Part shown: positions 17,223-31,449 of the stretch, piece by piece
Numbering within the stretch: position 1 is the stretch's first letter
Layout: each line of letters starts with the position of its first letter
Assembly (NCBI RefSeq): GCF_900198195.1
Contig: NZ_LT899436.1
Location: 2,323,001 to 2,387,000 of the forward strand
Origin: Tenacibaculum jejuense
Lineage (GTDB): Bacteria; Bacteroidota; Bacteroidia; Flavobacteriales; Flavobacteriaceae
Length of the DNA stretch: 64,000 nt
Reading direction: 5' to 3'
The notes under the pieces: generated by a model
Told to the model about the DNA's origin: nothing
Database searches by the model: none
The model's input: the letters and a program-made list of their open reading frames with translations, nothing else
Program-made: the position numbers and the translations under genes

Positions 17223-17295
17223 CTACATTAACAGTGTAGTGCTCTAGCCAACTGAGCTATAGAACTGCGTGAGTTCTAACAGGATTCGAACCTGT
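17223..17295 (-). tRNA. Permuted tRNA, Asn(GTT)-like (unit D)
   Basis: On the minus strand the 3' part (T-arm ACAGG-TTCGAAT-CCTGT, acceptor TAGAACT, 17272-17295) comes first. A 5-nt linker CACGC follows (17267-17271), then the 5' part (acceptor AGTTCTA, D-arm GCTCAGTTGGCTAGAGC, anticodon arm CTACA-CTGTTAA-TGTAG, 17223-17266). The acceptor strands match 7 of 7, and joining the pieces in the variable loop gives a standard 73-nt tRNA with anticodon GTT. No normal-order partner exists for either piece. Permutation is my reading of the complementarity; no RNA evidence is available here. Confidence 0.65.
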
Positions 17296-17310
17296 GCAAA
17301 CAAAAACCAG

Positions 17311-17352
17311 CGAGAGTCGTAATCTCGAGTTTAAGACCGGATTCGAACCGGC
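17311..17352 (-). pseudogene. Unpaired tRNA pieces (T-arm C and Arg(ACG)-like anticodon arm)
   Basis: Between units B and D lie a T-arm (17336-17352, GCCGG-TTCGAAT-CCGGT) followed by CTTAAAC, and then an anticodon-arm hairpin CGAGA-TTACGAC-TCTCG (17311-17327) that resembles the arm of the intact tRNA-Arg(ACG) at 19694. CTTAAAC finds no close acceptor partner; the best is GTTTATG of unit A with one mismatch. These may be relics or parts of a further split tRNA. Confidence 0.4.
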
Positions 17353-17376
17353 TTACCTTTCGGCTTTCCATTTTAA

Positions 17377-17450
17377 CTAGATTTTCAGTCTAGCGCGTCT
17401 ACCTATTTCGCCATACCTCCAAATGTGGAAGTAGTGGGATTCGAACCCAC
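17377..17450 (-). tRNA. Permuted tRNA, unit B (Leu-like D-arm, GAA anticodon loop)
   Basis: The minus strand gives T-arm GTGGG-TTCGAAT-CCCAC and acceptor TACTTCC (17427-17450), linker ACATTT (17421-17426), then acceptor GGAGGTA, D-arm GCGAAATAGGTAGACGC and arm CTAGA-CTGAAAA-TCTAG (17377-17420). The acceptors pair 7 of 7 with one G-U. The anticodon loop reads GAA (Phe), yet the TG-GCG...GACGC D-arm is of class II (Leu) type, and a class-II-like hairpin GCC-GAAA-GGT follows. It could equally be a broken leucine tRNA. Confidence 0.5.
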
Positions 17451-17460
17451 ACTAATTAAC

Positions 17461-17532
17461 TCTATCGTTCTAACCTAACTAAACTACATAAACCCTAAGT
17501 TTATGGCGGGAATCGAACCCGCGACCTATAGA
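17461..17532 (-). tRNA. Permuted tRNA split in the anticodon loop (unit A)
   Basis: The minus strand gives TCTAT-AGGTC-GCGGG-TTCGATT-CCCGC-CATAAAC (17499-17532), linker TTAGG (17494-17498), then GTTTATG-TA-D-arm-G-ATAGA (17461-17493). Acceptor strands match 7 of 7 and anticodon stem strands ATAGA/TCTAT match 5 of 5. The two pieces total 67 nt, so a 7-nt loop restores a canonical 74-nt tRNA. The anticodon depends on the junction (TTC, CTC, TAC or TAA are possible). Upstream of TCTAT is a 7-bp hairpin GATTATT/AATAATC. Confidence 0.65.
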
Positions 17533-17663
17533 ATGAGATTATTTTTTGGTGAATAATCAAAACCTTCAAGTCAAGTTGCACATGCATTACTCATACAAAA
17601 CTGCAAGAATGCATACAATAGTGCTATACTGAAACACCCAACAAGACTCGCTTGATATTTTCT

Positions 17664-17737
17664 GTCATTACGAAAAAAGTGAAATAATCTATTTATTGAT
17701 TTTACAGATTCCTTCGTTATTATTTCTTCGGAATGAC
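17664..17737. repeat. REP-like palindrome, second copy
   Basis: GTCATTACGAAAAAAGTG at one end and CTTCGGAATGAC at the other, same family as 16899-16975. It separates the 17763-17962 RNA gene from the permuted block. Confidence 0.6.
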
Positions 17738-17762
17738 GATATAAATTTTCAATGAACTTTTG

Positions 17763-17962
17763 TACCTCTTATCAGATTCGAACTGATACTCCTTATTAAG
17801 GCAGATTGGCTCTAAATGCGCTTCCCTACTCTACATCTTGTGTAATTCGGTGCTTCTGCAAATTCTATTCATTAGTAAGAGAACTACTAACAACATCATC
17901 CAATCACTTCATGGTTACGAAACAACCTTTTACCACAGCACTTCCCTTTATGCTAAAGAGGC
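17763..17962 (-). tRNA. Long interrupted tRNA-like gene, unresolved
   Basis: Acceptor-like ends GCCTCTT (17956-17962) and AAGAGGT (17764-17770, plus discriminator A) pair 7 of 7 with one G-U but are 200 nt apart. After the 5' acceptor come TA and a clear D-arm GCATAAAGGGAAGTGC; before the 3' acceptor is a standard T-arm ATCAG-TTCGAAT-CTGAT with a possible variable hairpin CCTT-AAT-AAGG. A second D-arm-like segment (GTAGGGAAGCGC) lies inside. I could not fix the anticodon. It looks like a tRNA with about 125 nt of intervening sequence, or two fused tRNAs. Confidence 0.4.
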
Positions 17963-17998
17963 GTTTATTTTTAACTATATATTGTCTTTTTAATTGTA

Positions 17999-18026
17999 CC
18001 TCACTATACTCCTTGTTATAGTGAGG
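17999..18026 (-). ncRNA. Conserved leader hairpin H1
   Basis: On the minus strand CCTCACTATA and TATAGTGAGG form a 10-bp stem with loop ACAAGGAG. The same hairpin with compensatory changes occurs at 25069-25096, in the same position relative to an operator and an interrupted tRNA. Confidence 0.7.
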
Positions 18027-18103
18027 CTTTACTTTTTCTTTTCATTATTTCCCCCTCTCATCGGTTTCTTTTTTCATAATTGCACTACAAATATTATAGT
18101 TAA

Positions 18104-18124
18104 TTGCGCATTGTTTTTGCGTAA
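18104..18124 (-). promoter_or_regulatory. Operator and promoter for the odd-tRNA/slipin transcript
   Basis: TTGCGCA-N7-TGCGTAA inverted repeat. On the minus strand it is followed after 10-14 nt by ATAATATTTG, a Bacteroidota -7-like element, so the repeat covers the -33 region. Copies are at 25220, 43813 and 52131. Confidence 0.7.
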
Positions 18125-18140
18125 TAAAATTTATTATAAA

Positions 18141-18626
18141 TTACACTACTTTATCTGCACAAGATGAACTTGCAAATGCATAAGGTTTAGCTTTAAATTC
18201 AAACCCCATTCCTAAAATATATCCCATAGCATCTTTTAGAGCAACGTTTGATTGAAATTTAGGATCTGTATTAATATCTGCATGAACCTCTAATGAAACA
18301 TTGTATTTATCTAAAATATTACAGATAGCATACGCTGTTTCTACAGACATCGTAACTTCTTTAAGCATTCTTTCTTTAATGCTAATCTGTTTAGTTCCTT
18401 TTAGGTTTCTCATAAACATAAATCCACCTTTACCTTCGCGTAACACAACAATAGCTGTTGCATATTCAATATGTGACTTATATGCTTGTGAATCTGATCC
18501 CACACAAATTTTTAAATTGTAACCTTCACTTTGTTCTCTTACAATTGCTTTTTCAATAAGTGTGGTTATTGGTTCACAGAACTCTTTACCACTAAAATTT
18601 CTCCATTTTTGTTTTACAGTTTTCAT
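18141..18626 (-). CDS. YkuK-type RNase H-fold protein (DUF458)
   Basis: The 161-residue protein matches the YkuK/DUF458 family, which has an RNase H-like fold. FSGKEFCEPI is near the N-terminus, KICVGSDSQAYKSH (acidic site) near residue 45, AIVVLREGKGGFMF near 65, and LEVHADINTDPKFQSN (second acidic cluster) near 115. A nuclease role on RNA or RNA-DNA is inferred from the fold; none is proven for the family to my knowledge. It is embedded between tRNA-Phe and the operator of the odd-tRNA transcript, in line with a tRNA-processing role. Confidence 0.8.
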   Translation of the reverse strand: MKTVKQKWRNFSGKEFCEPITTLIEKAIVREQSEGYNLKICVGSDSQAYKSHIEYATAIVVLREGKGGFMFMRNLKGTKQISIKERMLKEVTMSVETAYAICNILDKYNVSLEVHADINTDPKFQSNVALKDAMGYILGMGFEFKAKPYAFASSSCADKVV

Positions 18627-18653
18627 TTTTCATTCATTTTGCATTTTATTTAG

Positions 18654-18726
18654 TGGAACAAACAGGATTTGAACCTGTATCTTCGGATTTTCAGTCCGAC
18701 GCATTGACCAACTTTGCTATTGTTCC
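18654..18726 (-). tRNA. tRNA-Phe(GAA)
   Basis: Acceptor GGAACAA/TTGTTCC, D-arm GCAAAGTTGGTCAATGC, anticodon arm TCGGA-CTGAAAA-TCCGA, T-loop TTCAAAT. Discriminator A; no CCA encoded. Confidence 0.95.
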
Positions 18727-18728
18727 TT

Positions 18729-18800
18729 TTTCAATGATCAGTTATCAGTAGTAATTATTATTTTATTTATTGATCACTGATAACTATTAATTGTTCATTG
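18729..18800. repeat. Inverted spacer repeat between tRNA genes
   Basis: AATGATCAGTTATCAGT at one end and ACTGATAACT...TTCATTG at the other fold into a hairpin. Related AT-rich copies lie at 19038-19132, 19455-19527 and 19922-19998. Confidence 0.6.
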
Positions 18801-18808
18801 AATTTTGG

Positions 18809-18880
18809 GGTGATCTCGGGATTCGAACCCTGTTCTTCTCATTCACAGTGAGATATTTTACCACATAAACTAAAACCACC
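18809..18880 (-). tRNA. tRNA-His(GTG)
   Basis: Anticodon arm TCTCA-CTGTGAA-TGAGA. Encoded G-1 opposite discriminator C73, the histidine identity pair. The acceptor has two G-U pairs and the D-arm is AT-rich. Confidence 0.9.
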
Positions 18881-18885
18881 ATTTG

Positions 18886-18957
18886 TAAACCTGACAGGAT
18901 TTGAACCTATACAACAAGAGTCAAAGTCTTGTATGCTAACCATTACATCACAGGTTT
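18886..18957 (-). tRNA. tRNA-Gln(TTG)
   Basis: Acceptor AAACCTG/CAGGTTT, anticodon arm CAAGA-CTTTGAC-TCTTG, T-loop TTCAAAT. No CCA encoded. Confidence 0.93.
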
Positions 18958-18963
18958 AATTCG

Positions 18964-19037
18964 TACAGGAAGAGAGATTCGAACTCTAAAAATTCAGATT
19001 CTAAATCTGACGCGTATACCAGTTCCGCCATTCCTGC
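18964..19037 (-). tRNA. tRNA-Leu(TAG) with very short variable region
   Basis: Acceptor GCAGGAA/TTCCTGT, class II D-arm GCGGAACTGGTATACGC, anticodon arm TCAGA-TTTAGAA-TCTGA. The variable region is about 6 nt of T-rich sequence where bacterial leucine tRNAs carry a long arm, which is unusual. Confidence 0.88.
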
Positions 19038-19132
19038 TTTTTCAATGATTAGTTATCTGTAAACAATTATCATTTTTTTTCTTACTGATCACTGATAATT
19101 GTAAATTGATTACTGTTTACTTATCATTGTTT
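19038..19132. repeat. Inverted spacer repeat between tRNA genes
   Basis: AATGATTAGTTATCTGTAAA and TACTGTTTACTTATCATT give an imperfect hairpin; same family as 18729-18800. Confidence 0.55.
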
Positions 19133-19134
19133 TG

Positions 19135-19207
19135 CTGAGGCATTGGGATTCGAACCCAAGACTCCCGTGTTAACAGCACGGTACTCTGCCAGCTGAGTTA
19201 TACCTCA
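19135..19207 (-). tRNA. tRNA-Asn(GTT)
   Basis: Acceptor TGAGGTA/TGCCTCA, D-arm ACTCAGCTGGCAGAGT, anticodon arm CCGTG-CTGTTAA-CACGG, discriminator G. Normal gene order, unlike the Asn-like permuted unit at 17223. Confidence 0.95.
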
Positions 19208-19295
19208 ATTTTGGTGACTTTAATGTTAATTTTTAACAGCCAACTAATTTCTTTAACGTTAAGTCACCATACACACACCTTCTTTCTAGGTTTAG

Positions 19296-19368
19296 TCTAG
19301 AGAGCAGGATTCGAACCTACAACCTCCTGCATCCAAAGCAGGTAAACTACCAATTGTTATACCTCTAG
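19296..19368 (-). tRNA. tRNA-Pro(TGG), uninterrupted copy
   Basis: Acceptor CTAGAGG/TCTCTAG, anticodon arm CCTGC-TTTGGAT-GCAGG, T-arm GTAGG-TTCGAAT-CCTGC. It is the intact 73-nt counterpart of the interrupted gene at 20193-20317. Confidence 0.95.
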
Positions 19369-19374
19369 TTTTAG

Positions 19375-19447
19375 CGGTTCATACGAGAATCGAACTCGTA
19401 TCTCCCGAGAGACAGTCGGGAAGGTTAGCCATTAACCACAATGAACC
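19375..19447 (-). tRNA. tRNA-Asp(GTC), copy 1
   Basis: Acceptor GGTTCAT/ATGAACC, anticodon arm CCCGA-CTGTCTC-TCGGG, T-loop TTCGATT, discriminator G. Confidence 0.95.
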
Positions 19448-19454
19448 TTTTTTT

Positions 19455-19527
19455 CAGTGATCAATTAATTATTAGTAAACGATGATTAGTTTCTTTATTA
19501 ATCATTGTCACTGTTCACTGAACATTG
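19455..19527. repeat. Inverted spacer repeat between tRNA genes
   Basis: CAGTGATCAATTAATTATTA at one end with complementary AATCATTGTCACTG and TTCACTGAACATTG segments on the other side; same family as 18729-18800. Confidence 0.5.
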
Positions 19528-19562
19528 TACTCCACCTTGGATTACTCATTCATACTTGTTGA

Positions 19563-19643
19563 ATTAAGAAATCGTGAATACTTTGTATTTCGAACCAAGA
19601 ATTCACACGGCTTAAACGTGAACTGCGTTCTTAATTTCTCAAA
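19563..19643 (-). tRNA. Degenerate D-arm-less tRNA-like element, Leu(TAA)-type loop
   Basis: A 9-bp outer stem AATTAAGAA/TTCTTAATT encloses a hairpin CACG-TTTAAGC-CGTG (loop reads TAA as anticodon) and a T-arm-like GGTTCGAAAT segment. No D-arm can be found. TTCACG/CGTGTGAA and GTGTGAAT/ATTCAC are mutually exclusive pairings, so two folds compete. It may be a decayed leucine tRNA or a regulatory switch. Confidence 0.4.
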
Positions 19644-19693
19644 ACACGTTTTGCTCATTAATCTTTACCATTTTGGCCAGTGGAGCAAATTGT

Positions 19694-19763
19694 ACATCTA
19701 CTAAGACTCGAACTTAGACTTAGAGATTCGTAATCTCTTGTGCTATCCTTTACACCATAGATG
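19694..19763 (-). tRNA. tRNA-Arg(ACG)
   Basis: Acceptor CATCTAT/GTAGATG, anticodon arm AGAGA-TTACGAA-TCTCT, T-loop TTCGAGT. Unusual C1 and discriminator T. Confidence 0.88.
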
Positions 19764-19771
19764 CTTGTTCG

Positions 19772-19842
19772 CACGTTCATAAGGATTCGAACCTTAACCC
19801 TGAGTTTTGGAGACTCAAATGCTACCATTACATTATAAACGT
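19772..19842 (-). tRNA. tRNA-Trp(CCA)
   Basis: Acceptor ACGTTTA/TGAACGT, anticodon arm TGAGT-CTCCAAA-ACTCA, T-loop TTCGAAT, discriminator G as expected for bacterial Trp. Confidence 0.93.
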
Positions 19843-19849
19843 ATTTTTG

Positions 19850-19921
19850 AGCATCTGTCGAGACTCGATCTCGAAACTGAAGATTGGAAATCTACTATGT
19901 TACCAATTACACTACAGATGC
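19850..19921 (-). tRNA. tRNA-Gly(TCC) with unusual T-loop
   Basis: Acceptor GCATCTG/CAGATGC, anticodon arm GTAGA-TTTCCAA-TCTTC with one mismatch. The T-loop is ATCGAGT instead of TTCGAGT, losing the near-universal T54. Confidence 0.85.
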
Positions 19922-19998
19922 ATTTTCAATTATCAGTAAACAATTATCAGTTTTAATTACCCATTGGTAATTGTTAATTGATTAATGTTTACTTGTTA
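19922..19998. repeat. Inverted spacer repeat between tRNA genes
   Basis: TTATCAGTAAACAATTATCA and TAATTGTTAATTGATTAATG with TTTACT arms fold back; same family as 18729-18800. Confidence 0.5.
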
Positions 19999-19999
19999 G

Positions 20000-20082
20000 T
20001 GGAAGTAGTAGGACTCGAACCTACAAGCTCCGAAGAGACCAGATTTACAGTCTGGCGAGCCAACCAATTGCTCAATACTTCC
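20000..20082 (-). tRNA. tRNA-Tyr(GTA)
   Basis: Acceptor GGAAGTA/TACTTCC, anticodon arm CCAGA-CTGTAAA-TCTGG, long class II variable arm with CTCTTCGGAG, T-loop TTCGAGT, discriminator A. Confidence 0.95.
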
Positions 20083-20110
20083 TTTTCAATATTTCAATGA
20101 TCTTCAATCG

Positions 20111-20184
20111 AGACAAGGATGAGATTCGAACTCACAAAAAACAGAGTTGCAGTCTGTCGCCTTAAACCATTCAGCCACCTTGTC
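20111..20184 (-). tRNA. tRNA-Cys(GCA)
   Basis: Acceptor GACAAGG/CCTTGTC, anticodon arm ACAGA-CTGCAAC-TCTGT, short variable region, T-arm TGAG-TTCGAAT-CTCA. The D-arm is of class II style. Confidence 0.92.
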
Positions 20185-20192
20185 ATATTTAG

Positions 20193-20317
20193 TCTAGAGA
20201 GCAGGATTAGTTCGCCACACTTTTATATTTCTCTTTTGTGCTTATGAATGCTATGCATTTCGAACCTACAACCTCCCGCATCCAAAGCGGGTAAACTACC
20301 AATTTTTATACCTCTAG
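20193..20317 (-). tRNA. tRNA-Pro(TGG) interrupted in the T-loop by about 52 nt
   Basis: Acceptor CTAGAGG/TCTCTAG and arm CCCGC-TTTGGAT-GCGGG match the intact tRNA-Pro at 19296, but the T-arm is split: GTAGG-TTCG is followed by about 52 nt before AATCCTGC. Removing them restores TTCGAAT and a 73-nt tRNA. Intron-end sequences TTCG and CGAA pair (4 bp), leaving AAA after the 5' strand and CTAAT after the 3' strand, a bulge-helix-bulge-like arrangement with the junctions in the bulges. No group I or II intron features fit such a short insert. Alternatively it is a tRNA disrupted by an insertion. Confidence 0.75.
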
Positions 20318-20323
20318 TTTTAG

Positions 20324-20396
20324 CAGTGCTGACGGGATTCGAACCCGCAACCCTCCGAGAGACAGTAGGATGCGCTAGCCATTGCGCCACAACACT
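20324..20396 (-). tRNA. tRNA-Asp(GTC), copy 2
   Basis: Acceptor AGTGTTG/CAGCACT with one wobble, loop CTGTCTC, T-arm GCGGG-TTCGAAT-CCCGT. The anticodon stem TCCTA/TCGGA has one mismatch. Confidence 0.88.
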
Positions 20397-20401
20397 TTTT
20401 G

Positions 20402-20486
20402 CAGAGAACAAAGGAATCGAACCTTCACCATTATCATGGACTTAATTAGCAGTTAAGCGTAACAAACCAATATTTACCTATTCTCC
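20402..20486 (-). tRNA. tRNA-Ser(GCT)
   Basis: Acceptor GGAGAAT/GTTCTCT with wobbles, anticodon arm CTTAA-CTGCTAA-TTAAG, variable arm CCAT-GATA-ATGG, discriminator G. Confidence 0.9.
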
Positions 20487-20491
20487 TTTTG

Positions 20492-20563
20492 TACTCTGTA
20501 AGGGAATCGAACCCTTATTTCCTGATAGAAAGTCAGGCGTACTTGCCGTTATACGAACAGAGT
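20492..20563 (-). tRNA. tRNA-Glu(TTC)
   Basis: Acceptor ACTCTGT/ACAGAGT, anticodon arm CCTGA-CTTTCTA-TCAGG, T-loop TTCGATT, discriminator A. Confidence 0.93.
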
Positions 20564-20570
20564 TTTTTTG

Positions 20571-20658
20571 CGGAAGAGGTGGGATTCGAACCCACACGAG
20601 TCGTTAACTCCGAACGGTTTTCAAGACCGTGGCCACCACCAAATTGGCTTGCTCTTCC
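20571..20658 (-). tRNA. tRNA-Ser(TGA)
   Basis: Acceptor GGAAGAG/CTCTTCC, anticodon arm ACGGT-CTTGAAA-ACCGT, long variable arm with GAGT/ACTC, discriminator G. First gene of the array in transcription order. Confidence 0.95.
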
Positions 20659-22208: not shown

Positions 22209-22766
22209 CTATGAGTTTCTTAAACACCAATGCAAAATTTTTGCAATGTTCTTTGCATCATCTACACCTCTATGATGCGTTCCTTCTAAAGGAATATCCA
22301 AAATATGTAAAGCTCCTTTCATGCCAACTTTGCGTCGTAAAGCTTTTACTTCAGCAAAGAGTTCTTTTACATTAACATGTTCTTGCGATAAAGGATATTC
22401 AACACCTCTGATCTTACACTGATTTTGAATCATTTTTAAATCATAGGCCCCATAATTTGCCCAAACATATTCTTTAGCGTTATAATCTTCTCGAATTTGT
22501 CGGCAAGCTTCCTTAAATGAAATCCCTTCTTTATCTAACAAATCCTGAGTAATGGTAGTCAATTCTGTACAAAACGGACTTACTTCTGAACGTTCTGGTT
22601 TGACTAAAATTCCTTTATTTTTTGAAATTTCTCCTGATTCGATATCTAATTCACTGATACCAAATTCTATAATTTCATTTACTTGTCCTGCTGGAATTTT
22701 GCCATTCCAACAAGTAGCTTCTATATCTATTACAATTATTTTATTTCCTCTTAATTTCATTTTCAT
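22209..22766 (-). CDS. DEDDh 3'-5' exonuclease (ERI-1/KapD/RNase T-like)
   Basis: The exonuclease fold shows all five catalytic residues: IVIDIEATCW (Asp, Glu), WANYGAYDLKMI (Asp) and HRGVDDAKNI (His, Asp). ERI-1/KapD-type members trim the 3' ends of structured RNAs. I chose the ATG at 22766, which lies inside the end of the upstream gene (overlap about 26 nt), implying translational coupling. An ATG at 22796 is also open. Coupling to the TerD-like gene and to the odd tRNAs suggests a 3'-end trimming role in the same pathway. Confidence 0.88.
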   Translation of the reverse strand: MKMKLRGNKIIVIDIEATCWNGKIPAGQVNEIIEFGISELDIESGEISKNKGILVKPERSEVSPFCTELTTITQDLLDKEGISFKEACRQIREDYNAKEYVWANYGAYDLKMIQNQCKIRGVEYPLSQEHVNVKELFAEVKALRRKVGMKGALHILDIPLEGTHHRGVDDAKNIAKILHWCLRNS

Positions 22767-24525
22767 TAAATATTTTGATAAAACTATCTTTTTCAAGTAC
22801 GTCTAAAGAAAAATCATAAGTTGCTTCTTCTCTATTCGTTACAAGTTCTCCACCTAATTCATAAACAATAGCTTCAAATGTTAGTGGATTATTCCATTGT
22901 TGGTATAAAGCTTTTGTAGCTAAGTCTGAAATTTCTGAATTACCAGAAACTCTTGCATGACCCGCTCCAAAATTTAATAATACAAACGATTGCTGATTTT
23001 CTTCTGGTAAAATCATACCCAAAATGGTTTGCTTTTGTACAGAATTACATTTGATATCTACAAATAATTTATTAGGATCCATCATATATTCATTTTTTAT
23101 ACCATCTCCTCTACCAACAATTATTTTATAATCACAATCTTGTCTTCCAGAATAAACATTATTATTTACCAAAGTTGGTGCATTTAAACCTGTATTGGCA
23201 TATAAATATTCTACAGCTCCATTTGGTGCATCAGTAATATCTCCAGAATACATTAAATCTCCATTACCTTGTTTATAAGTAGCATTCCATCCTACTTTAC
23301 CTCCAATATTGATTCCTGATAAATCTAAATCATAAGCTCCCCATTTATTTTCCCAGTAGACACCAACAGCTAATTTTTCTCCATAGAATTTTGTTCCCGT
23401 TGGGATATTTCCTACGTACATTTTTTCTGATGTTGGTAAAGCATATTCTATATCTTTTGGAATAAATATTTTTTGCTCTGATAAATTGAATCTATTTTTC
23501 AAGTATGCCAGTAAGAAATCATAATTTAAGTCACTTGCATAAGTTGAACGTCCTGGTTTTACCCAAGATTTACCATTTCTTATACGATACATAAACGTAT
23601 CTTGACCATTTTTTCTGATATAACAAGCACTTAATGCTTTAAATAAAGCAAATGGTGTTGCATTATCTAACCAATGCGTATCTTTTTCTAACAATAACGC
23701 ATAGGTTACTTCATTTAATGGGTTAGATGTTAATGGTTTGTGATACTTTTTAGATAATTTACTAATCTTATTAATTGTTTTAGGCGCTCTATTTTTATAA
23801 GCTAAAAACAATGGCTTGAATCGATTAAAAATCTCTGCTAATCGCTCTAATCCGAATTTATTAAAAGCTATTGACGGATTATAAGAACTGTCTTTAATCG
23901 CTTGAATTAATTCTTCATTTTTAATTAATAATGTAGTGTCTGTAGTTCTATAAATTATATATCTGAAAAACTCTACTACACTTTCTGGATAAACTTGATA
24001 TACATCGGCAATCTTAACAATTGCTTCTTTATTTTTTATTTGTTCTTTCCCAGTAAATTCATATTGCAATTCGTCTACTAAAATTGATAGAATATCGTCT
24101 ATAGTTTCTTCTTTTAAAGCAATACCCGATTGTAGCAATGACAAACATTTTTTTGTCATTTCTTCAACTGTATATGCCTTAATTACTTTATAAACTAATT
24201 TTAAGTTTGGGACATTTAAAACTTCTGAAGGAATATAAATTTCACTTTTAAAATTACTTCCGTAAGTAGAAATATAATGTTGTATTTGTTCAACATACAA
24301 TTCAAATCTCGTACTTGTTTTAATTTTATTCCAAGATTTATGGAAGGTTTTGTTTAAATCGTTTCCGCTTAACTGTTCACGAGTATAAAATTCTTCTATT
24401 TTATCTTTTGCCCATAAAGCGTCTTTTTCTATAATGAATCCTTCTTTAGAGATAAACGGACGATCATTATTTTCTGATTCTTTTGCTATTACAGCGTTAA
24501 ACAATTTTAATGTTTTCATTTTCAT
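22741..24525 (-). CDS. Large unknown protein with helical N-terminus and TerD-like C-terminal domain
   Basis: This protein of 594 residues has a helical, repeat-like N-terminal half (to about residue 260). Its C-terminal domain (about residues 385-590) includes VGVYWENKWGAYDLDLSGI and LMYSGDITDAPNGAVEYLY, which resemble the DLDLS and GD...G motifs of the TerD fold. I do not recognise a TROVE/Ro60 vWA site (no DxSxS), although its place next to tRNA-like RNAs recalls Ro60. Its leader contains four copies of a structured motif (24533-24725 plus copies in the upstream tRNAs), the last ending 8 nt before the ATG. It is coupled to the DEDDh exonuclease downstream. RNA binding is inferred from context only. 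Confidence 0.6.
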   Translation of the reverse strand: MKMKTLKLFNAVIAKESENNDRPFISKEGFIIEKDALWAKDKIEEFYTREQLSGNDLNKTFHKSWNKIKTSTRFELYVEQIQHYISTYGSNFKSEIYIPSEVLNVPNLKLVYKVIKAYTVEEMTKKCLSLLQSGIALKEETIDDILSILVDELQYEFTGKEQIKNKEAIVKIADVYQVYPESVVEFFRYIIYRTTDTTLLIKNEELIQAIKDSSYNPSIAFNKFGLERLAEIFNRFKPLFLAYKNRAPKTINKISKLSKKYHKPLTSNPLNEVTYALLLEKDTHWLDNATPFALFKALSACYIRKNGQDTFMYRIRNGKSWVKPGRSTYASDLNYDFLLAYLKNRFNLSEQKIFIPKDIEYALPTSEKMYVGNIPTGTKFYGEKLAVGVYWENKWGAYDLDLSGINIGGKVGWNATYKQGNGDLMYSGDITDAPNGAVEYLYANTGLNAPTLVNNNVYSGRQDCDYKIIVGRGDGIKNEYMMDPNKLFVDIKCNSVQKQTILGMILPEENQQSFVLLNFGAGHARVSGNSEISDLATKALYQQWNNPLTFEAIVYELGGELVTNREEATYDFSLDVLEKDSFIKIFNENEIKRK

Positions 24526-24532
24526 AATATTT

Positions 24533-24580
24533 ATAAGTGAGGTGTATTTAATGGAATATATAGGAACACCTTTTACCTAT
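24533..24580 (-). ncRNA. Structured motif copy E6, in the leader of the TerD-like gene
   Basis: Minus strand: helix ATAGGT/ACTTAT, internal loop AAA opposite C, helix AGGTGT/ACACCT, then conserved TCCTAT. It ends 8 nt before the start codon, so it could mask the ribosome binding site. Confidence 0.7.
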
Positions 24581-24589
24581 GTTTTAAAA

Positions 24590-24661
24590 AAAGACGAAGA
24601 GTAAAATGAACCTAAACATGTTCCGGAATCGAACCGGTATATAGGAACTCTTTTTGTCTTT
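24590..24661 (-). ncRNA. Structured motif copy E5, enclosing a T-arm-like hairpin
   Basis: Helix AAAGAC/GTCTTT, AAA opposite C, helix AAGAGT/ACTCTT, then TCCTAT. The enclosed loop holds CCGG-TTCGATT-CCGG, a T-arm without the rest of a tRNA. Confidence 0.7.
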
Positions 24662-24664
24662 AAT

Positions 24665-24725
24665 AATCAACGAGAAGTAATTTTTCCTTTAATTGTGATT
24701 TTTATAGGAACTTCTTTTGTCGATT
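24665..24725 (-). ncRNA. Structured motif copy E4
   Basis: Helix AATCGAC/GTTGATT, AAA opposite C, helix AGAAGT/ACTTCT, then TCCTAT. It lies between the interrupted tRNA at 24728 and E5. Confidence 0.7.
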
Positions 24726-24727
24726 TG

Positions 24728-24848
24728 TGACTCAGACAGGACTCGAACCTGTAACCTCTAGAACCAAAAGTTTCTAGGAACTATTTATGCTTTTTAACAG
24801 CGAACAGTATAACAAATCTAGTGCTCTACCTAATTGAGCTACTGAGCC
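24728..24848 (-). tRNA. tRNA interrupted in the anticodon loop by about 47 nt (contains E3)
   Basis: Acceptor GGCTCAG/CTGAGTC (one G-U), D-arm GCTCAATTAGGTAGAGC, anticodon stem CTAGA/TCTAG, variable AGGTT, T-arm ACAGG-TTCGAGT-CCTGT: every arm is perfect, but the anticodon loop is expanded by about 47 nt. The insert contains motif E3 (24780-24808). Loop reconstructions give TTG (Gln), TGG (Pro) or TGT (Thr) depending on the splice points. No CCA encoded. Confidence 0.8.
24780..24808 (-). ncRNA. Structured motif copy E3 (within tRNA insert)
   Basis: Here the hairpin is closed at the other end: ACTGTT-C-GCT, loop GTTAAAA, AGC-ATA-AATAGT, then TCCTA. Helix, bulged C opposite three bases and TCCTA are all kept. 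Confidence 0.7.
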
Positions 24849-24852
24849 TGAT

Positions 24853-24918
24853 AATACTAACGGAAAGTAATATTTAGGTGACAGCTAATGTTAAATAGGA
24901 ACTTTCTTAGTCAGTATT
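24853..24918 (-). ncRNA. Structured motif copy E2, between the two interrupted tRNAs
   Basis: Helix AATACTGAC/GTTAGTATT (9 bp, one G-U), TAA opposite C, helix GAAAGT/ACTTTC, then TCCTAT with a further TATTTA/TAAATA helix. Confidence 0.75.
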
Positions 24919-24920
24919 TG

Positions 24921-25037
24921 TAGTTCGGGCAGGGATCGAACCTGCGACACACAGTTTGGATCTTTTCATAGGAACTATTGTTGCTTTTTCATAGCGAATA
25001 GTATTTTTCTGTTGCTCTACCGCTGAGCTACCGAACT
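24921..25037 (-). tRNA. tRNA interrupted in the anticodon loop by about 45 nt, Trp(CCA)-like (contains E1)
   Basis: Acceptor AGTTCGG/CCGAACT, D-arm GCTCAGCGGTAGAGC, T-arm GCAGG-TTCGATC-CCTGC. The anticodon stem is ACAG/CTGT with a 3' loop segment TCCAAA, which reads CCA (Trp); Gly(TCC) is a less good alternative. About 45 nt with motif E1 (24974-25002) separates the two stem strands. First RNA of the transcript after the operator at 25220. Confidence 0.75.
24974..25002 (-). ncRNA. Structured motif copy E1 (within tRNA insert)
   Basis: ACTATT-C-GCT, loop ATGAAAA, AGC-AAC-AATAGT, then TCCTA. Same topology as E3 with a covarying helix. Confidence 0.7.
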
Positions 25038-25068
25038 ATTTCATAATGTTAATGAACTTTTAATTTTG

Positions 25069-25096
25069 CCTCATCATACTCCTCGTTATGATGAGG
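25069..25096 (-). ncRNA. Conserved leader hairpin H2
   Basis: CCTCATCATA/TATGATGAGG 10-bp stem with loop ACGAGGAG. Two compensatory base-pair changes relative to H1 (17999-18026) support an RNA structure. On the plus strand it is followed by TTTTTT, but there is no plus-strand gene before it. Confidence 0.7.
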
Positions 25097-25219
25097 CTTT
25101 TTTCTTTTTCAATCTTCCCCCTCTTCTTTTCAATTTCATAGATCTTTATTTCTTTTTCAGAAAGCAATTTGATTAATTATTGCTCTTTTTCATAATTACA
25201 CTGCAAATATTGAAGTATA

Positions 25220-25240
25220 TTGCGCATTGTTTTTGCGTAA
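25220..25240 (-). promoter_or_regulatory. Operator and promoter for the TerD-like gene transcript
   Basis: TTGCGCA-N7-TGCGTAA, followed on the minus strand by CAATATTTGCA. Operator, promoter, purine-rich leader and hairpin are all homologous to the region at 17999-18124. Confidence 0.7.
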
Positions 25241-25251
25241 TAAAAATAATG

Positions 25252-25563
25252 TTATTTATTTTCATAAATTTTATCTCTACGATCAATTTCAGCAAGCGGA
25301 CTTCCTTTAAATGTATCAATATTTACAAAGCCATTCGCCTCAGTAATTAAGGATTCAGAAGGTTTTACAGCTCCTCTCCTAACATTTCCATAATCGCCAG
25401 TGAGTTTTTTAGTAGCTGGATCAACATCTCCCCATAACTTATCAGGTTTTCCTTGATCTATAGGCTCTACATAATATGTAATTCCTGTTACTTTAGACTG
25501 AACAATAAATCTTCCTGAATTATCTGTGCCTTGTAAAAACCTTTTTAAAACTTCTCTTCTCAT
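25252..25563 (-). CDS. Hypothetical protein, 103 residues
   Basis: A soluble, charged protein starting MRREVLKRFLQGTDNSGRF and ending IDRRDKIYENK. No membrane segments, no recognised domain. It follows the TPR gene by 27 bp and precedes the island operator, so the two probably share a transcript. Confidence 0.65.
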   Translation of the reverse strand: MRREVLKRFLQGTDNSGRFIVQSKVTGITYYVEPIDQGKPDKLWGDVDPATKKLTGDYGNVRRGAVKPSESLITEANGFVNIDTFKGSPLAEIDRRDKIYENK

Positions 25564-25590
25564 TTTTTTATTTTTAATGATTAAACTTAA

Positions 25591-26142
25591 TTACTTCTTT
25601 TTCTTGTTTTTCTTTGCTTTAGCTTCTTTTTTCTTTTCTTTCTTTTTAGTTTTTTTCTTTTTCCGTGGAACTTTGTCTTTAATCCTATCTTTATGCTGAT
25701 TAATTGTATACATGAAACTATCATTATACGTATGAATTTTTGCCTCTTTCAAAAAATCTAATGCTTTTTGATACGATCTTTTTTGTTCAAAAAGTCTTGC
25801 TTTACTTACATACAAAACCGCTTTGTCTGAACCTTTAATCTTTAAAGCAAAATCTATTAATTTTTCAGCTTCATCTAAATCTTCATTCCATAATAGAACA
25901 TTAACATAATGCGGATAAATATGAAATGCGTTAATATCCTCGGCTAAAGCTTCAGCAAAATAACTTTTCGCTTTTTCATAATCATATAAACTCTCAGCAT
26001 TAATGCGTCCAAGTAAACCTAACACCATAGTGTTTTTTTCATCATAAGCTAAAGCATAAGTTAAAGCTTCCATAGCTTCTTCTAAATCATATGGATATGC
26101 ATCTAATGCTTTAAATATGTAATTATTCGTTAGTGTTTTCAT
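25591..26142 (-). CDS. TPR-repeat protein with lysine-rich tail
   Basis: I start at the ATG at 26142 (MKTLTNNYIFKALDAYPYDL). The upstream ATG at 26163 would run into a dispersed repeat. The protein has about three TPR-like helix pairs (residues 5-135), followed by a highly basic tail of about 30 residues made mostly of Lys and Glu (KKKKTKKKEKKKE). Such tails often contact nucleic acid or the ribosome. Function unknown. It sits directly after prfH. Confidence 0.75.
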   Translation of the reverse strand: MKTLTNNYIFKALDAYPYDLEEAMEALTYALAYDEKNTMVLGLLGRINAESLYDYEKAKSYFAEALAEDINAFHIYPHYVNVLLWNEDLDEAEKLIDFALKIKGSDKAVLYVSKARLFEQKRSYQKALDFLKEAKIHTYNDSFMYTINQHKDRIKDKVPRKKKKTKKKEKKKEAKAKKNKKKK

Positions 26143-26158
26143 TTTATTTTCTTTTTTT

Positions 26159-26280
26159 GTCACTTCGAGTGAAAGTATTCAAAATGAAATACAGAATACT
26201 TTTATATCGAGAAGTTCTCGATACTATTTTATTTCGACTTTGTATTCACTCCATCTTCATAAAAATCACTCGAACTAACA
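26159..26280. repeat. REP-like element (GTCACTTCGAGTGA family), copy 1
   Basis: Ends are GTCACTTCGAGTGA and TCACTCGAAC; the centre holds TATCGAGAAGTTCTCGATA, a strong palindrome. Related copies at 27023 and 27794. Confidence 0.75.
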
Positions 26281-26312: not shown

Positions 26313-27008
26313 TTAATTCAATTCTCTACGCAAATCATTTTTTAATTGATTACGTTTTGATTTATAGTTTTTCTTTTTCTGTTTTTGAATTTTAAAATCT
26401 GTTCCAGTAAATATTTGTACTGGATTTCCTCTTTCTATATTCAAATGATTTTCCCATTCTTGTTGTACCGATTGCTGTAATTGCTCAATAGTATTTGCCA
26501 TTACTCGCTCTTTTAATCGTTGTATTGCTATCTTTTTATTTTGATGCTGTGATCTACTTTCTGATACCAATACTTGAATTCCTGTTGGAATATGTTTTGC
26601 TCTAATCGCAGAACTTACTTTATTTACATGTTGTCCTCCAGGACCAGAACTTCGTATGGCTTGAAATGCTATTTGCTTTTCATCTACAGTAGTTTTGTTT
26701 TTCATTTTTAATTCAAAACAACCGATAAACCAATTTTTACGTTTGTGATGTTTTCTGTATGTTGATGTACCAATCCATTTAATAGTGCCTAACCATTCTT
26801 TCAAAAATGAAGTCAAGTTTTTACCTTCAATTTGAATCGTAACCGATTGAACAGTTCCATTTTGATTCCCATTTTCTTTTTGAAGAATCGTATAATCAAA
26901 CTTATTTTCTTCTAATTTTTTAATGAACGTTTTTAATACTTTAGCAACTACCCAAGTACATTCTGCAGGACCACGACCTGCGGTAAATTGAATTGTTTTT
27001 GTTTCCAT
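26313..27008 (-). CDS. prfH: Peptide chain release factor homologue PrfH
   Basis: The 231-residue protein is a short class I release factor: the GGQ motif is in RSSGPGGQHVNKVSSAI, and RSQHQNKKIAIQRL follows. The stop-codon-reading domains of RF1/RF2 are missing, which defines PrfH. PrfH genes are typically found beside rtcB, and the protein has been shown to release peptides from ribosomes with damaged 16S rRNA decoding centres, after which RtcB reseals the break. An rtcB lies 0.9 kb upstream here. The gene is bracketed by REP-like repeats. Confidence 0.93.
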   Translation of the reverse strand: METKTIQFTAGRGPAECTWVVAKVLKTFIKKLEENKFDYTILQKENGNQNGTVQSVTIQIEGKNLTSFLKEWLGTIKWIGTSTYRKHHKRKNWFIGCFELKMKNKTTVDEKQIAFQAIRSSGPGGQHVNKVSSAIRAKHIPTGIQVLVSESRSQHQNKKIAIQRLKERVMANTIEQLQQSVQQEWENHLNIERGNPVQIFTGTDFKIQKQKKKNYKSKRNQLKNDLRRELN

Positions 27009-27151: not shown

Positions 27152-27694
27152 TTAAGGCATTTTTGATAACAATGGATTACCTATTGGATTTTTTCCTTCT
27201 GATACTAATTTTATTGCGGTTTTTACTGCCCAACATTTATCACTTGAATGAATATTTGAATAAAAACTTAATAACGTTTCTGGCTGAACTACTTGCCAAC
27301 CATTAACCTCAGTTGTTGCTATAGTTTTAGATTCAAAGAAATCGATTGTAACTCTAACTTCTCTTCCTGTTGGTAACCACTCTATTTTTTCGTATCGTCT
27401 AAAATTCTCTTGACTAGGCATATGATCGTAACGAGTCCAAACTTTTTCAAATCCATCATCTAATAAAATTTGCATTACAATTCCAACATTTTTAGGATTC
27501 ACAAAAATGTCTATATCCTTATGATCATGTGCATGTTTGTATTCCTTATGATTCATTTCTGACATGAAATGCCAGGCCCATCCTCCAGAAATAACAATCC
27601 ATTGTTTTAATTTTTCTAATATTTTTAGGCCTAATTCTATACGGTAATCAGGCCATAATTCTCCGTATCTTTTTGTGTTATGTTGTGCTCCCAT
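27152..27694 (-). CDS. Nucleotidyltransferase-fold protein
   Basis: The 180-residue protein has a pol-beta-type active site: VISGGWAWHF (GG turn) followed by HKDIDIFVNP (DxD). The WLPTGREVRVTIDFFES strand carries the third acidic residue. It resembles small nucleotidyltransferases of the aminoglycoside/AbiEii type. In this setting a nucleotide-adding role on RNA 3' ends is plausible but inferred. Flanked on both sides by REP-like repeats, between prfH and rtcB. Confidence 0.75.
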   Translation of the reverse strand: MGAQHNTKRYGELWPDYRIELGLKILEKLKQWIVISGGWAWHFMSEMNHKEYKHAHDHKDIDIFVNPKNVGIVMQILLDDGFEKVWTRYDHMPSQENFRRYEKIEWLPTGREVRVTIDFFESKTIATTEVNGWQVVQPETLLSFYSNIHSSDKCWAVKTAIKLVSEGKNPIGNPLLSKMP

Positions 27695-27950: not shown

Positions 27951-29342
27951 TTACTTATCCATTCTTACAATTTTCGGTGTAAAAGTTCCTATAACTTCTA
28001 CCAATTCTTGTTGATTTGCCATGACTTTCTTTATGTTTTTATATGCCATTGGCGCTTCATCAATTCCACCTCCAATTAAACTCACTTGATTCATATTCAG
28101 TTGATGCTTAATATCACTTTTGGTGAACTTTTCTTTACATTTTCTTCTAGAATGTTTTCTCCCTGCTCCATGTGATGCAGACTGCAAACTTTCTTCATTA
28201 CCCAAACCTCGAACAATGTATCCTGGTGCAGTCATAGATCCTGGAATTACTCCTAATTCTCCTTTGCTAGCAGGAGTTGCTCCTTTTCTATGTACAATTC
28301 GTTCTACTCCGTTGACTTGTTCTTTCCAAGCAAAATTGTGATGATTTTCAACCATTGCTAGTGGTTTTACACCTAGTAACTTTGCTACTCGTTTGTGAAT
28401 ATTATCATGACAAGCTTTAGCATAATCACCTGCTAAATTCATAGCTAGCCAATATTCTTGTCCGTCATGTGTATTTAAATCTAACCAAGCTAGATGCTGT
28501 ACATTCTTTGGTAACGGACATTGTTTACTCGCTAAATAGGTATAATGTTTTGCTATATTAGCTCCTAAAGCTCTTGATCCACTGTGAGATAATAATCCCA
28601 CATATTCACCTATAGGTAAATCAAACTCGTTTTTTTCATCAGTTATGGTTACAATTCCGAACTCTACAAAGTGATTTCCACTACCTGAAGTTCCTAATTG
28701 TCTGAATGCCTTTGTTTTTAAGCGCCTTACTAATGGAATATCTCGAAACTCACTACGTTCAAATATTTCATGATCTTGTTTTTTATCATGAGTTTCATAC
28801 ATCCCAAACTTTGTATGCTCTTTTAAAATATTCTCCATTTGATGTTGCTTTCCTTTGATATAAGAAGCTTTCATTGGATAAATACTTAAAGCCATTCTAC
28901 AACCGATGTCTAACCCCACGCCATATGGAATTACTGCATTATCTGTAGCTAAAACTCCGCCAATGGGCAAACCGTAACCCGAATGTGCATCTGGCATTAA
29001 TGCGCCTTGCACTGCTATTGGTAATTTTAAAGCATCGTATAATTGATACTTTGCTTGATCATCAATTTCGTTTTCTCCATAAATTGAAAATGGAGCTCTT
29101 GTATTTCGTAATTGATGCATTCTAACTTCTACTGGTTTTGTTAAACCTTCTGCAACTTTCCCCCAAATCGCATTTCCTTGATATTTTTCTGGATGAAGCA
29201 ATACGTCTTTTGCTTCTTCTAAAATGCGCTCTTTCTTTTCCTTTTTTCTGTATCGGTTAATTTGCCCTAAGGCGATGTTTATGCTATTATTTTGTGGAAA
29301 TCCTAAATTGATTAGATCTTTTCCTTTTAATCTCTTTCCCAT
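27951..29342 (-). CDS. rtcB: RtcB RNA ligase, PrfH-associated type
   Basis: The 463-residue protein carries the RtcB metal and guanylylation residues: GLDIGCRM (Cys), GSGNHFVEFG, LLSHSGSRALG, VENHHNFAW, HRKGATPASKGE and SHGAGRKHSRRK (the guanylylated His). RtcB joins 2',3'-cyclic phosphate or 3'-phosphate ends to 5'-OH ends with GTP and Mn2+, as in tRNA splicing and in repair of ribotoxin cuts. Its start overlaps the end of the upstream gene by 16 nt. The second rtcB at 50660 is of a different subfamily. Confidence 0.96.
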   Translation of the reverse strand: MGKRLKGKDLINLGFPQNNSINIALGQINRYRKKEKKERILEEAKDVLLHPEKYQGNAIWGKVAEGLTKPVEVRMHQLRNTRAPFSIYGENEIDDQAKYQLYDALKLPIAVQGALMPDAHSGYGLPIGGVLATDNAVIPYGVGLDIGCRMALSIYPMKASYIKGKQHQMENILKEHTKFGMYETHDKKQDHEIFERSEFRDIPLVRRLKTKAFRQLGTSGSGNHFVEFGIVTITDEKNEFDLPIGEYVGLLSHSGSRALGANIAKHYTYLASKQCPLPKNVQHLAWLDLNTHDGQEYWLAMNLAGDYAKACHDNIHKRVAKLLGVKPLAMVENHHNFAWKEQVNGVERIVHRKGATPASKGELGVIPGSMTAPGYIVRGLGNEESLQSASHGAGRKHSRRKCKEKFTKSDIKHQLNMNQVSLIGGGIDEAPMAYKNIKKVMANQQELVEVIGTFTPKIVRMDK

Positions 29343-30022
29343 GTTACTTTCCCATTTAAAATTGCTGCTATTGGATAGTTTTGTAAAGCTTTTAATTGTT
29401 TTTTAGCCTTAAGTTTATCCTTTGTAAAATCTTGGGTTGTCCAATAATCTTTTCGATTCCAACCACAAAATTTTGCGTTTGCTTTGTAGTATCTGTTTCT
29501 TAACAACTTGTTATCAAGTAAAGCATCTTCACTTTCTAACTCTGGATCAATTCTTTTAGAATGTGTTATATAAGCTCTCGTGTATTTTATACGATAGGCG
29601 CTTTTAGGAATTCGTACATAAAATCTTTTTCTAAGCTTTTTGTCTTCTGTTCTGTACGAATACACAGTGCACATCTTTTGTGCTTTATAACTTAATCTGT
29701 TAAATTGACGTTTACTGACTGTTGGAAAATCTTTATAGATCAGATATTTTGAAATTTGATGAAACCATTGTTGATCAGCTTCTTCTTTGGTTCTACCCCA
29801 AAATTTCTTCTCTATTGCATCGTATAATTCAAGAATCTCTTTCTTGTTTTTATATCGATCTACGTTTTGAGTTATAACGATCTCTTTAAACCAACCATGT
29901 CGAATTGGTTTTTCAAGTTTTATATAACCTAAACTTTGTTTTTGTTTCCAAATTTGATGTTGTCTTTTCAAGATACCACGAACCTCTTTAAGCCTTTTCG
30001 ACTTTTTATGTTCTGGTTTCAA
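29327..30022 (-). CDS. Unknown basic protein, paralogue of 30775-31449
   Basis: The 231-residue, strongly basic protein shares a colinear block pattern with the gene at 30775: LxKPIRHGWFKEIVITQNVDRY near residue 40, KKFWGRTKEEADQQWFHQISKYLI near 75, and RFYVRIPKSAYRIKYTRAYITH near 150. I do not recognise the family. The basic surface and translational coupling to rtcB (16-nt overlap) suggest RNA or ribosome binding. No catalytic motif is evident. Confidence 0.8.
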   Translation of the reverse strand: MKPEHKKSKRLKEVRGILKRQHQIWKQKQSLGYIKLEKPIRHGWFKEIVITQNVDRYKNKKEILELYDAIEKKFWGRTKEEADQQWFHQISKYLIYKDFPTVSKRQFNRLSYKAQKMCTVYSYRTEDKKLRKRFYVRIPKSAYRIKYTRAYITHSKRIDPELESEDALLDNKLLRNRYYKANAKFCGWNRKDYWTTQDFTKDKLKAKKQLKALQNYPIAAILNGKVTWERD

Positions 30023-30774: not shown

Positions 30775-31449
30775 TTAACAAGCTTCATTCATTAAGTATT
30801 TGATTCCTTTATTTTTTAAATCTCTGACTTTTCTCTTACCTTCTTGCCTACTTTCTCTATAACTAGGCCAATCGTCATAAGTTAACCAAGGGAATAACTT
30901 TCTTTCTGTTTCGTAATATCCTTTACTTTTTAACTTTTGTTTTAAAAAAGCGATTTGTTTATCTAATTGCGGATCTACATTTCGAGTATGGGTTACATAA
31001 GCTCTTGTGAATTTTATTTTATAAGCTCCTTTAGGTATTTTAATATAAAAACGAGTTCTTAAATTTTTTCTTTCAGTGTAATATTGAAAAGGAATACATA
31101 GTTTTTTAGCTTCAATACTTAGCTTGTTGTATTGTTTTTTATTTAAAGTAGGGGTTTCTTTATTGATTAAATATTTAGAAATCTGATATCTCCATTTTCG
31201 TTCTGCTTCTTCCTTCGTTTTAGCCCAAACTTTTTTCTCCACTAATCTATATACTTCTTCTATATATTCTTTGTTAGCATACTTATCTATAGTATTAGTA
31301 ATAATTAGCTCTTTAAACCAACCATGTCGGTAAGGTTGATTTAATTTTATTAGTTTTAACTGAGATTTTTTTTCATATAGTACATCAAGTTGTCTATATA
31401 TTTTACGAACTTCTTTCTCCTTTAGTTCTTTATTATTTTTTGGTTTCAT
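30775..31449 (-). CDS. Unknown basic protein, paralogue of 29327-30022
   Basis: The 224-residue protein shares with its neighbour the blocks LNQPYRHGWFKELIITNTID, KKVWAKTKEEAERKWRYQ and RFYIKIPKGAYKIKFTRAYV. It is lysine-rich and soluble. No family recognised. Two diverged copies around one rtcB suggest distinct, retained functions. It is the first gene of the rtcB-prfH stretch on the minus strand, separated from the second copy by about 750 nt of small-ORF units. Confidence 0.8.
   Translation of the reverse strand: MKPKNNKELKEKEVRKIYRQLDVLYEKKSQLKLIKLNQPYRHGWFKELIITNTIDKYANKEYIEEVYRLVEKKVWAKTKEEAERKWRYQISKYLINKETPTLNKKQYNKLSIEAKKLCIPFQYYTERKNLRTRFYIKIPKGAYKIKFTRAYVTHTRNVDPQLDKQIAFLKQKLKSKGYYETERKLFPWLTYDDWPSYRESRQEGKRKVRDLKNKGIKYLMNEAC

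Follow-up and report, generated by a model that had tools for sequence, protein, structure and literature searches.

A candidate ribonucleoprotein of a TerD-like protein family and tRNA-mimicking RNAs, common to bacterial RNA-repair islands and tRNA-rich large phages

In a stretch of 64,000 nucleotides (nt) of the Tenacibaculum jejuense genome (contig NZ_LT899436.1, positions 2,323,001 to 2,387,000; "the window" below), six copies of a small structured RNA motif are lined up on the minus strand between positions 25002 and 24533, directly 5' of a gene for a protein of 594 amino acids (aa), and two of the six are built into tRNA-like bodies. The same motif and relatives of the same protein recur together in other bacteria, in phages and in viral contigs. 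The motif is probably the binding site of the 594-aa protein, whose C-terminal part is predicted to be TerD-like, and protein and tRNA-mimicking RNAs would together form a ribonucleoprotein (RNP) belonging to an RNA-repair island. By analogy, such an RNP would most likely work in the manner of Ro60-Y RNA, although it is not a member of that system by sequence, and it probably serves RNA repair or tRNA handling.

Each copy of the motif consists of a helix P1, three A-rich bases (AAA, AAC, ATA or TAA in the window) opposite a single C, a covarying helix P2 of 6 base pairs (bp) whose final pairs are G-C and U-A, and then UCCUA. A preliminary description, made from the letters of the window, had pointed to six occurrences of TAGGAAC on the plus strand within 470 bp, and to six minus-strand helices of changing sequence beside them. 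All six occurrences are there (24561, 24642, 24705, 24775, 24896 and 24969), as are the six helices, each paired at 6/6 positions and each with its single C and 3-nt A-rich stretch. The heptamer as such has 13 matches in the whole window, of which the array holds six; whole-window shuffles give 5.97 +/- 2.35.

The copies (E1 to E6, Table 1) occur in two orientations. In E1 and E3 a small loop caps P1 and the opposite end runs on into the anticodon stem of a tRNA-like gene, with an insert of about 50 nt in both cases; E2, E4, E5 and E6 are hairpins, reversed relative to E1 and E3. The claim that E1 and E3 lie inside tRNAs is borne out by Rfam: the two bodies have the cloverleaf with a 7-bp acceptor stem and D and T arms, and the 7-nt anticodon loop is absent, its place being taken by the motif (by E1 in tRNA-like gene 1). 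ARAGORN calls neither of them. The loop of E5 contains a T arm and after it, as read by eye, a short GAAC/GTTC hairpin, and a T arm within one hairpin loop is also present in three other loci (L075, L076, L077). E6 does end 8 nt before the first ATG, as had been described. A search of Rfam 15 over 24400-25600 at E < 0.01 returned only tRNA and sub-threshold YrlA, so that the hairpin motif matches no described family there. A sigma-70 scan of the array gave 2 sites, against 4.5 in shuffles.

That sequence changes in the helices preserve pairing had been read as a sign of selected RNA structure, and this extends well beyond the six window copies. For 52 of 60 distinct bacterial hairpins (set A2; eight near-duplicate or long-loop copies dropped), RNAalifold returned the same structure, in which 8 of the 11 pairs show changes in both partners, and covariation was 0.516, against 0.237 when shuffled, a value reached by 0/500 shuffles. 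Phage copies, which took no part in building the covariance model described below, behave alike: in 46 of 57 (set A6; 11 near-duplicate or long-loop copies dropped), covariation was 0.745 as against 0.266 for shuffled and at most 0.192 for slid registers, double changes occur at 11 of 12 pairs, and RNAalifold found the same structure without guidance. These copies were preselected by a pairing rule, so their percentage paired is biased. An unbiased control is given by the GTTCCT sites of 34 phage and viral loci: the full structure is present at 56/76 sites lying 0-600 nt upstream of the gene, compared with 1/36 elsewhere on the same strand, 1/77 on the opposite strand and 9/1520 with shuffled flanks. 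In 28 of 30 tRNA forms (set A7), 97.1% of cells are paired and double changes occur at 17 of 25 pairs (acceptor 6, P2 5, T arm 3, P1 2, D arm 1). Paralogous copies inherit changes, so that double-change cells are dependent events; the bacterial pairing scan also mis-typed the last hairpins of two loci (L005, L007) as tRNA forms.

The protein is carried by 23 of 296 genomes of the source's order, in two genera, one of them Tenacibaculum. All 24 distinct bacterial loci (L001, L004-L026) have at least two motif copies just upstream of the gene (L002, L025 and L035 are one place, as are L003 and L006, and each place is counted once). The association also holds when the search starts from the RNA. 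A covariance model of the hairpin orientation (R1), built from two bacterial genera and run without the protein on 196 genomes of the order, found 11 strong genomes, all among the 23 protein carriers, and beyond these one weak partial match at 22.3 bits. On the genome of the window the model finds four copies, all in this array, plus one weak stray at 24.4 bits; E1 and E3 are missed, which is what the hairpin orientation of the model leads one to expect. In three genera outside the model it recovers three to four copies each, all directly 5' of the homologous gene. The last hairpin adjoins the start codon in the window as well as in the bacterial loci inspected.

Outside bacteria, tblastn detected homologues in two Synechococcus phages, S-CRM01 (35%) and S-CBWM1 (33%), and in gut phage Phass-1 (28%), and 38 viral contigs of IMG/VR encode relatives that are 30-74% identical in the best segment. 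R1 matches 31 of the 38 viral loci and all three phages; four of its seven misses are cut contigs (L122, L126, L130, L147). The structure scan, which covered 31 of the 38 IMG/VR loci plus the three phages, found the motif in 31 of 34, at protein identities down to 28%, a few chance pairings remaining among its matches; near-duplicates remain among the loci scanned (L136/L144; L139-L142; L145, L146, L148), while three further near-duplicates with the motif present (L117, L124, L137) and the four cut contigs were excluded. A motif-first search with two patterns only gave 10 viral loci, seven of them in records that encode a homologue (one being S-CRM01 again) and three in homologue-free records of 35.5, 6.4 and 20.9 kb. 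Several phage loci sit within tRNA arrays, in tRNA-rich phages. Most viral arrays lie at most 600 nt upstream of the gene, but others lie 3' of it (L128, L136, its near-duplicate L144, and L151; in Phass-1 the array begins about 1.3 kb after the gene), and in two large contigs the distance is much greater: array at 411-424 kb and gene at 20 kb in a contig of 424 kb, motif at 46 kb and gene at 67 kb in one of 165 kb. From their positions, the distant and 3' arrays can be read as RNA able to act in trans.

The 594-aa protein has a helical N-terminal half, and the alignment of its close homologues begins at the second ATG (24519). Among 7997 scored candidates, 1593 homologues were found at E <= 0.001. 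It has no Pfam or NCBIfam match, and Pfam TerD is found neither in it nor among 25 diverse members; TerD is nevertheless the best fold match of the modelled C-terminal part, at middling confidence of the AF2 model, and a TerD-like fold is accordingly only predicted for that part. PDB searched by sequence gave nothing below E 0.03. In PHROGs three families matched with one member each (best E 3e-5), none with a stated function except "tail fiber chaperone" at 0.0077. No homologue was found on plasmids, and a second search with the Phass-1 protein as query added no further relatives. A TROVE relation, tried by hhalign of 25 close homologues, was rejected: reversed and some column-shuffled controls scored equal to the real pair. 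In one Tenacibaculum genome (L035 7562-9457, G228) the partner gene is split into open reading frames (ORFs) of 444 and 170 aa in the same frame, which may be either a real break or an assembly error.

Motif and tRNA body are joined in three ways. In layout (a) the motif sits in the anticodon arm of an unpermuted tRNA, as in the window: this is the case in 20 of 24 bacterial loci, in L075-L077 and in several viral loci, and tRNA-like bodies of some kind are present in 23 of 27 bacterial arrays. In layout (b), found twice in L125 and once in S-CRM01, a permuted tRNA is closed by the motif, in the order stem, T arm, acceptor with a short closing loop, D arm, stem; the minimum-energy fold shows this for both L125 copies. 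In layout (c), seen in L154, L155 and L157, the motif encloses a whole tRNA from the acceptor end: Rfam places a tRNA of 72-73 nt inside P2 (52.1, 48.3 and 44.7 bits, respectively), its predicted anticodon arm folds with a 4-nt loop, and in L154 and L155 the tRNA continues into ACCA, like a 3' end. All three layouts, as predicted from sequence and folding, yield a tRNA body in which the standard anticodon loop is missing. If this is true, some tRNA genes counted in such arrays may not be decoding tRNAs.

What might such RNAs do? The conserved loop and UCCUA, combined with a freely changing helix, suggest a protein that reads a shape and a few bases, and the 594-aa family is taken to be that protein since it is the one that accompanies the motif. 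The preliminary description had thought a protein-binding or processing site likely, an overall interpretation that these results support. Each motif would bind one protein, so that an array, mostly of two to seven motifs, would carry several. The protein would hold a tRNA-shaped, non-decoding body and present it to tRNA-handling enzymes, in bacteria those of the RtcB/nucleotidyltransferase repair set and in phages the handlers of phage tRNAs, by analogy with the way Ro60 and YrlA may serve PNPase. In bacteria, protein that is free of mimics may also bind to the final hairpin, which adjoins the start codon of its gene, and reduce its own translation.

Several observations weigh against this interpretation or limit its reach. 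Four of the 24 bacterial loci (L008, L015, L019, L021) have hairpins only, without a tRNA-like body, and in 12 of the 28 tRNA forms of set A7 the outermost P2 pair is unpaired. The minimum-energy fold of the S-CRM01 copy differs from the permuted layout, which there rests on arm sequences; the full layout-(c) cloverleaf appears in the minimum-energy fold of L154 only, L155 and L157 resting on arm sequences and Rfam tRNA matches. Foldseek with the whole protein model gave no match at E <= 0.001, and its top 50 do not include TerD. Three viral loci with a complete gene (L114, L115, L143) gave no motif with R1 or the structure scan. In both large contigs with distant arrays, a further GTTCCT site is present some 80-90 nt ahead of the gene, so that distance alone is no proof of trans action. 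Finally, tblastn at E <= 1e-4 over the 34 phage and viral stretches found no RtcB and no PrfH, and one nucleotidyltransferase (L115); the link to repair therefore rests on the bacterial loci.

An unlikely alternative is that this is a highly diverged Ro60-Y RNA system, with a protein descended from TROVE ancestors and a motif derived from the Y stem. YrlA is described as joining a stem for Rsr to a tRNA-like module for PNPase (PMC8394870), and in Salmonella as lying within the rtcBA operon in the order rsr-yrlBA-rtcBA (PMC7790460). The present loci resemble it: a noncoding RNA of stem plus tRNA-like module (YrlA, RF02553) has its gene next to those of a dedicated protein and of RtcB, the permuted forms of L125 and S-CRM01 have the YrlA part order, and in the window a tRNA-like module with D, T and acceptor arms is joined to a stem that may bind protein. 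No TROVE domain, however, was detected in the 594-aa protein or in Pfam scans of 25 diverse members (A5), hhalign of these members against five TROVE proteins gave a probability of 1.1%, and the best match of the modelled C-terminal part is TerD, where Ro60 has vWA. No match to RF02553 exceeds the gathering score of 69 bits (best in the array, 26.7 and 16.6 bits). The motif also differs from Y RNA in being repeated within each locus, in occurring as plain hairpins and in unpermuted tRNAs as well, and in its internal loop; loop sizes and sequence are unlike those of the Y stem. Of 60 genomes of the family, the source's among them, none matches TROVE itself (PF05731), and neither does any of 8 phage or viral records, some of which may be fragments; across the phylum it is present in 13 of 198 genomes, one of them in the same family, and the protein-bearing genomes G000, G094 and G027 are listed without it.

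The arrays could instead act only in cis, as leaders that control translation or processing of the mRNA of the 594-aa gene, with no trans-acting RNA at all. The position of the last hairpin at the start codon in the window and other bacterial loci, and the upstream location of most viral arrays, within 600 nt, would suit such a role. This explanation is improbable, though, given the arrays 3' of the gene (L128, L136, L144, L151) and those tens of kb away in two contigs (even with the GTTCCT site just before the gene there), and given that the tRNA-like bodies in 23 of 27 bacterial arrays, with their covarying acceptor and T stems, are not needed by a leader. Because some arrays are 3' of the gene, self-limitation of synthesis cannot be the main role everywhere.

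There is a rather small chance that the tRNA bodies are decoys which absorb anticodon nucleases or tRNA-targeting toxins of attackers: repair islands and tRNA-rich phages are contexts where decoys might be expected, but the part cut by such nucleases is just the part that is replaced or removed, and the plain hairpins would be left without a role. Least credible is that the anticodon-arm inserts are introns, excised and the halves joined by the neighboring RtcB. In favor of it, RtcB is in the same island, and removing the insert of L076 and L077 by eye leaves a fully paired anticodon arm (with one G-U pair in L076) and the anticodon CAU. Against it, plain hairpins make up most of the copies, the permuted and 4-nt-loop forms have no anticodon to restore, and tblastn did not find RtcB near phage arrays in the 34 stretches.

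Returning to an RNP of the 594-aa protein and tRNA mimics, how new would it be? From TerD proteins the 594-aa protein differs in the long helical half fused to its modelled TerD-like part and in having no Pfam TerD match. Bacteria and large phages have tRNA arrays that contain or adjoin many of the motif loci; the motif-bearing members of these arrays lack a standard anticodon loop. To our knowledge, only Ro60-Y RNA represents tRNA mimicry of this kind in the RNA-damage and phage-tRNA niche. Protein and RNA motif alike are without a match among the described families of the libraries searched, and no counterpart was found for the modular grafting; by a stricter judgement, the system could count as a variation on the Y RNA type. 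On balance, and with modest conviction, this looks like an undescribed RNP class, a TerD-like protein family with a small RNA tag grafted on tRNA bodies in three ways, in which case the Y RNA principle would have been invented twice independently. That such a class is common to RtcB islands and tRNA-rich large phages, with mimics that steer tRNA repair or supply, has a slightly better than even chance of being right. An RNA family and a protein family would then be shared as a pair by cyanophages, a gut phage and Bacteroidota. The purpose of a tRNA-shaped body that cannot decode would become testable, and a test set for one protein would be at hand in natural RNAs whose sole difference is the way in which motif and tRNA are connected.

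In the open-access literature, as far as its texts were available, no account was found of the motif, or of tRNAs that lack an anticodon and are linked to a protein of this sort. A jumbo phage survey has ROT/TROVE with a tRNA-like partner (PMC7824862), a study of Anabaena has a common repressor, TrcR, of the trn operon and rtcB (PMC10272220), and the accessible parts of three papers on phage tRNAs (PMC9964418, PMC6409571, PMC5852040) mention nothing alike.

Table 1. Features of the array, its partner gene and the surrounding repair island (window coordinates).
Feature	Position	Strand	Remarks
594-aa partner protein gene	22741..24525	-	helical N-terminal half; C-terminal residues ~381-532 modelled TerD-like
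motif copy E6	24533..24580	-	hairpin; R1 52.3 bits; ends (24533) 8 nt before first ATG (24525)
motif copy E5	24590..24661	-	R1 52.7 bits; loop encloses T arm 24637-24623
motif copy E4	24666..24722	-	plain hairpin; P2 AGAAGT/ACTTCT; R1 57.7 bits, E 1.5e-12
tRNA-like gene 2	24728..24848	-	Rfam RF00005 59.7 bits; acceptor 7/7; E3 in anticodon arm
motif copy E3	24775..24808	-	ACTGTT-C-GC...GC-ATA-AATAGT-TCCTA
motif copy E2	24856..24915	-	plain hairpin; P1 ACTGAC/GTTAGT, bulge TAA, P2 GAAAGT/ACTTTC; R1 43.0 bits, E 4e-8
tRNA-like gene 1	24921..25037	-	Rfam RF00005 48.9 bits; 7-bp acceptor 7/7 paired, D arm, T arm
motif copy E1	24969..25002	-	capped at P1; ACTATT-C-GC...GC-AAC-AATAGT-TCCTA; anticodon arm of tRNA-like gene 1
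leader hairpin GCCTCATCAT/ATGATGAGGC	25068..25097	-	upstream of array
palindrome TACGCA-N7-TGCGCA	25221..25239	-	upstream of array; also 18123-18105
TPR protein	25591..26163	-	PF14559 31.7 bits, cut-off 25
PrfH peptide release factor	26313..27008	-	TIGR03072 230.5 bits, cut-off 166.65
nucleotidyltransferase-like protein (weak)	27152..27694	-	Lnu matches far under cut-off
RtcB RNA ligase	27951..29342	-	PF01139 E 4.4e-81

The surroundings of the array (Table 1) are those of an RNA-repair island. All 14 bacterial stretches read, from 13 distinct places, contain RtcB, several of the bacterial loci also have genes for PrfH, a TPR protein and a nucleotidyltransferase, and a homologue of the nucleotidyltransferase-like protein stands beside RtcB in L001-L003, L035 and L076. 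PrfH-RtcB repair operons with TPR and Pol-beta nucleotidyltransferase genes have been described (PMC6514570), and the window island has that gene set, PrfH and RtcB together; the description, in the part available, is without the 594-aa protein, TerD or the RNA motif. Near RtcB are two related proteins without family matches (29327-30022 and 30775-31449, minus strand; 47% identity over 196 aa in the L035 comparison). The island also contains an array of 16 tRNAs (18653-20658, minus strand), and L076 and L077 have comparable arrays next to these genes; the gene at 20572-20658 (minus strand) is tRNA-Sec to Rfam (52.1 bits) and tRNA-Ser(tga) to ARAGORN.

Flanked by an RNaseH-like gene (18141-18626) on one side and by an HflK/band-7-like gene (15775-16875) on the other is a second RNA array (16880-18160, minus strand). 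This array has the leader hairpin and the palindrome in common with the first array, the sister copy of the hairpin, with compensatory changes, being at 18027-17999, ahead of the array, and it contains permuted tRNA modules with sub-threshold YrlA matches of 33.0 and 32.5 bits; the TTCCT motif core is absent from its strand. A tRNA-like RNA of at least about 200 nt, at about 17962-17760 (minus strand) and in L077 at about 7600-7880, has its D and T arms separated by a long conserved insert, which to the eye looks similar in two genera. An abstract by Burroughs and Aravind of 2016 reportedly names a band-7-associated tRNA-like molecule, and the second array (16.9-18.1 kb), or its tRNA-like RNA of about 200 nt, may be this molecule. 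In that molecule, as here, an RNA resembling tRNA accompanies a scaffold protein of RtcB systems; the second array differs from the first in its HflK-like partner gene, and fits the band-7-associated molecule better than the first array does.

The palindrome appears operator-like. On the plus strand, the leader hairpin is terminator-like, with a T-rich tail, there being 2 such sites in the region versus 0.4 in shuffles. Matches to tmRNA lie near motif arrays in three phage or viral loci (L123 7780-8032, L150 16198-16476, L119 4444-4720), two of them of permuted or cyanobacterial type. The source genome itself encodes one protein with two RNase_PH domains, like PNPase, which says nothing about its use, and elsewhere in the window a DUF805b cis-regulatory RNA matches at 37973-38007 (minus strand; 46.2 bits, cut-off 35.6).
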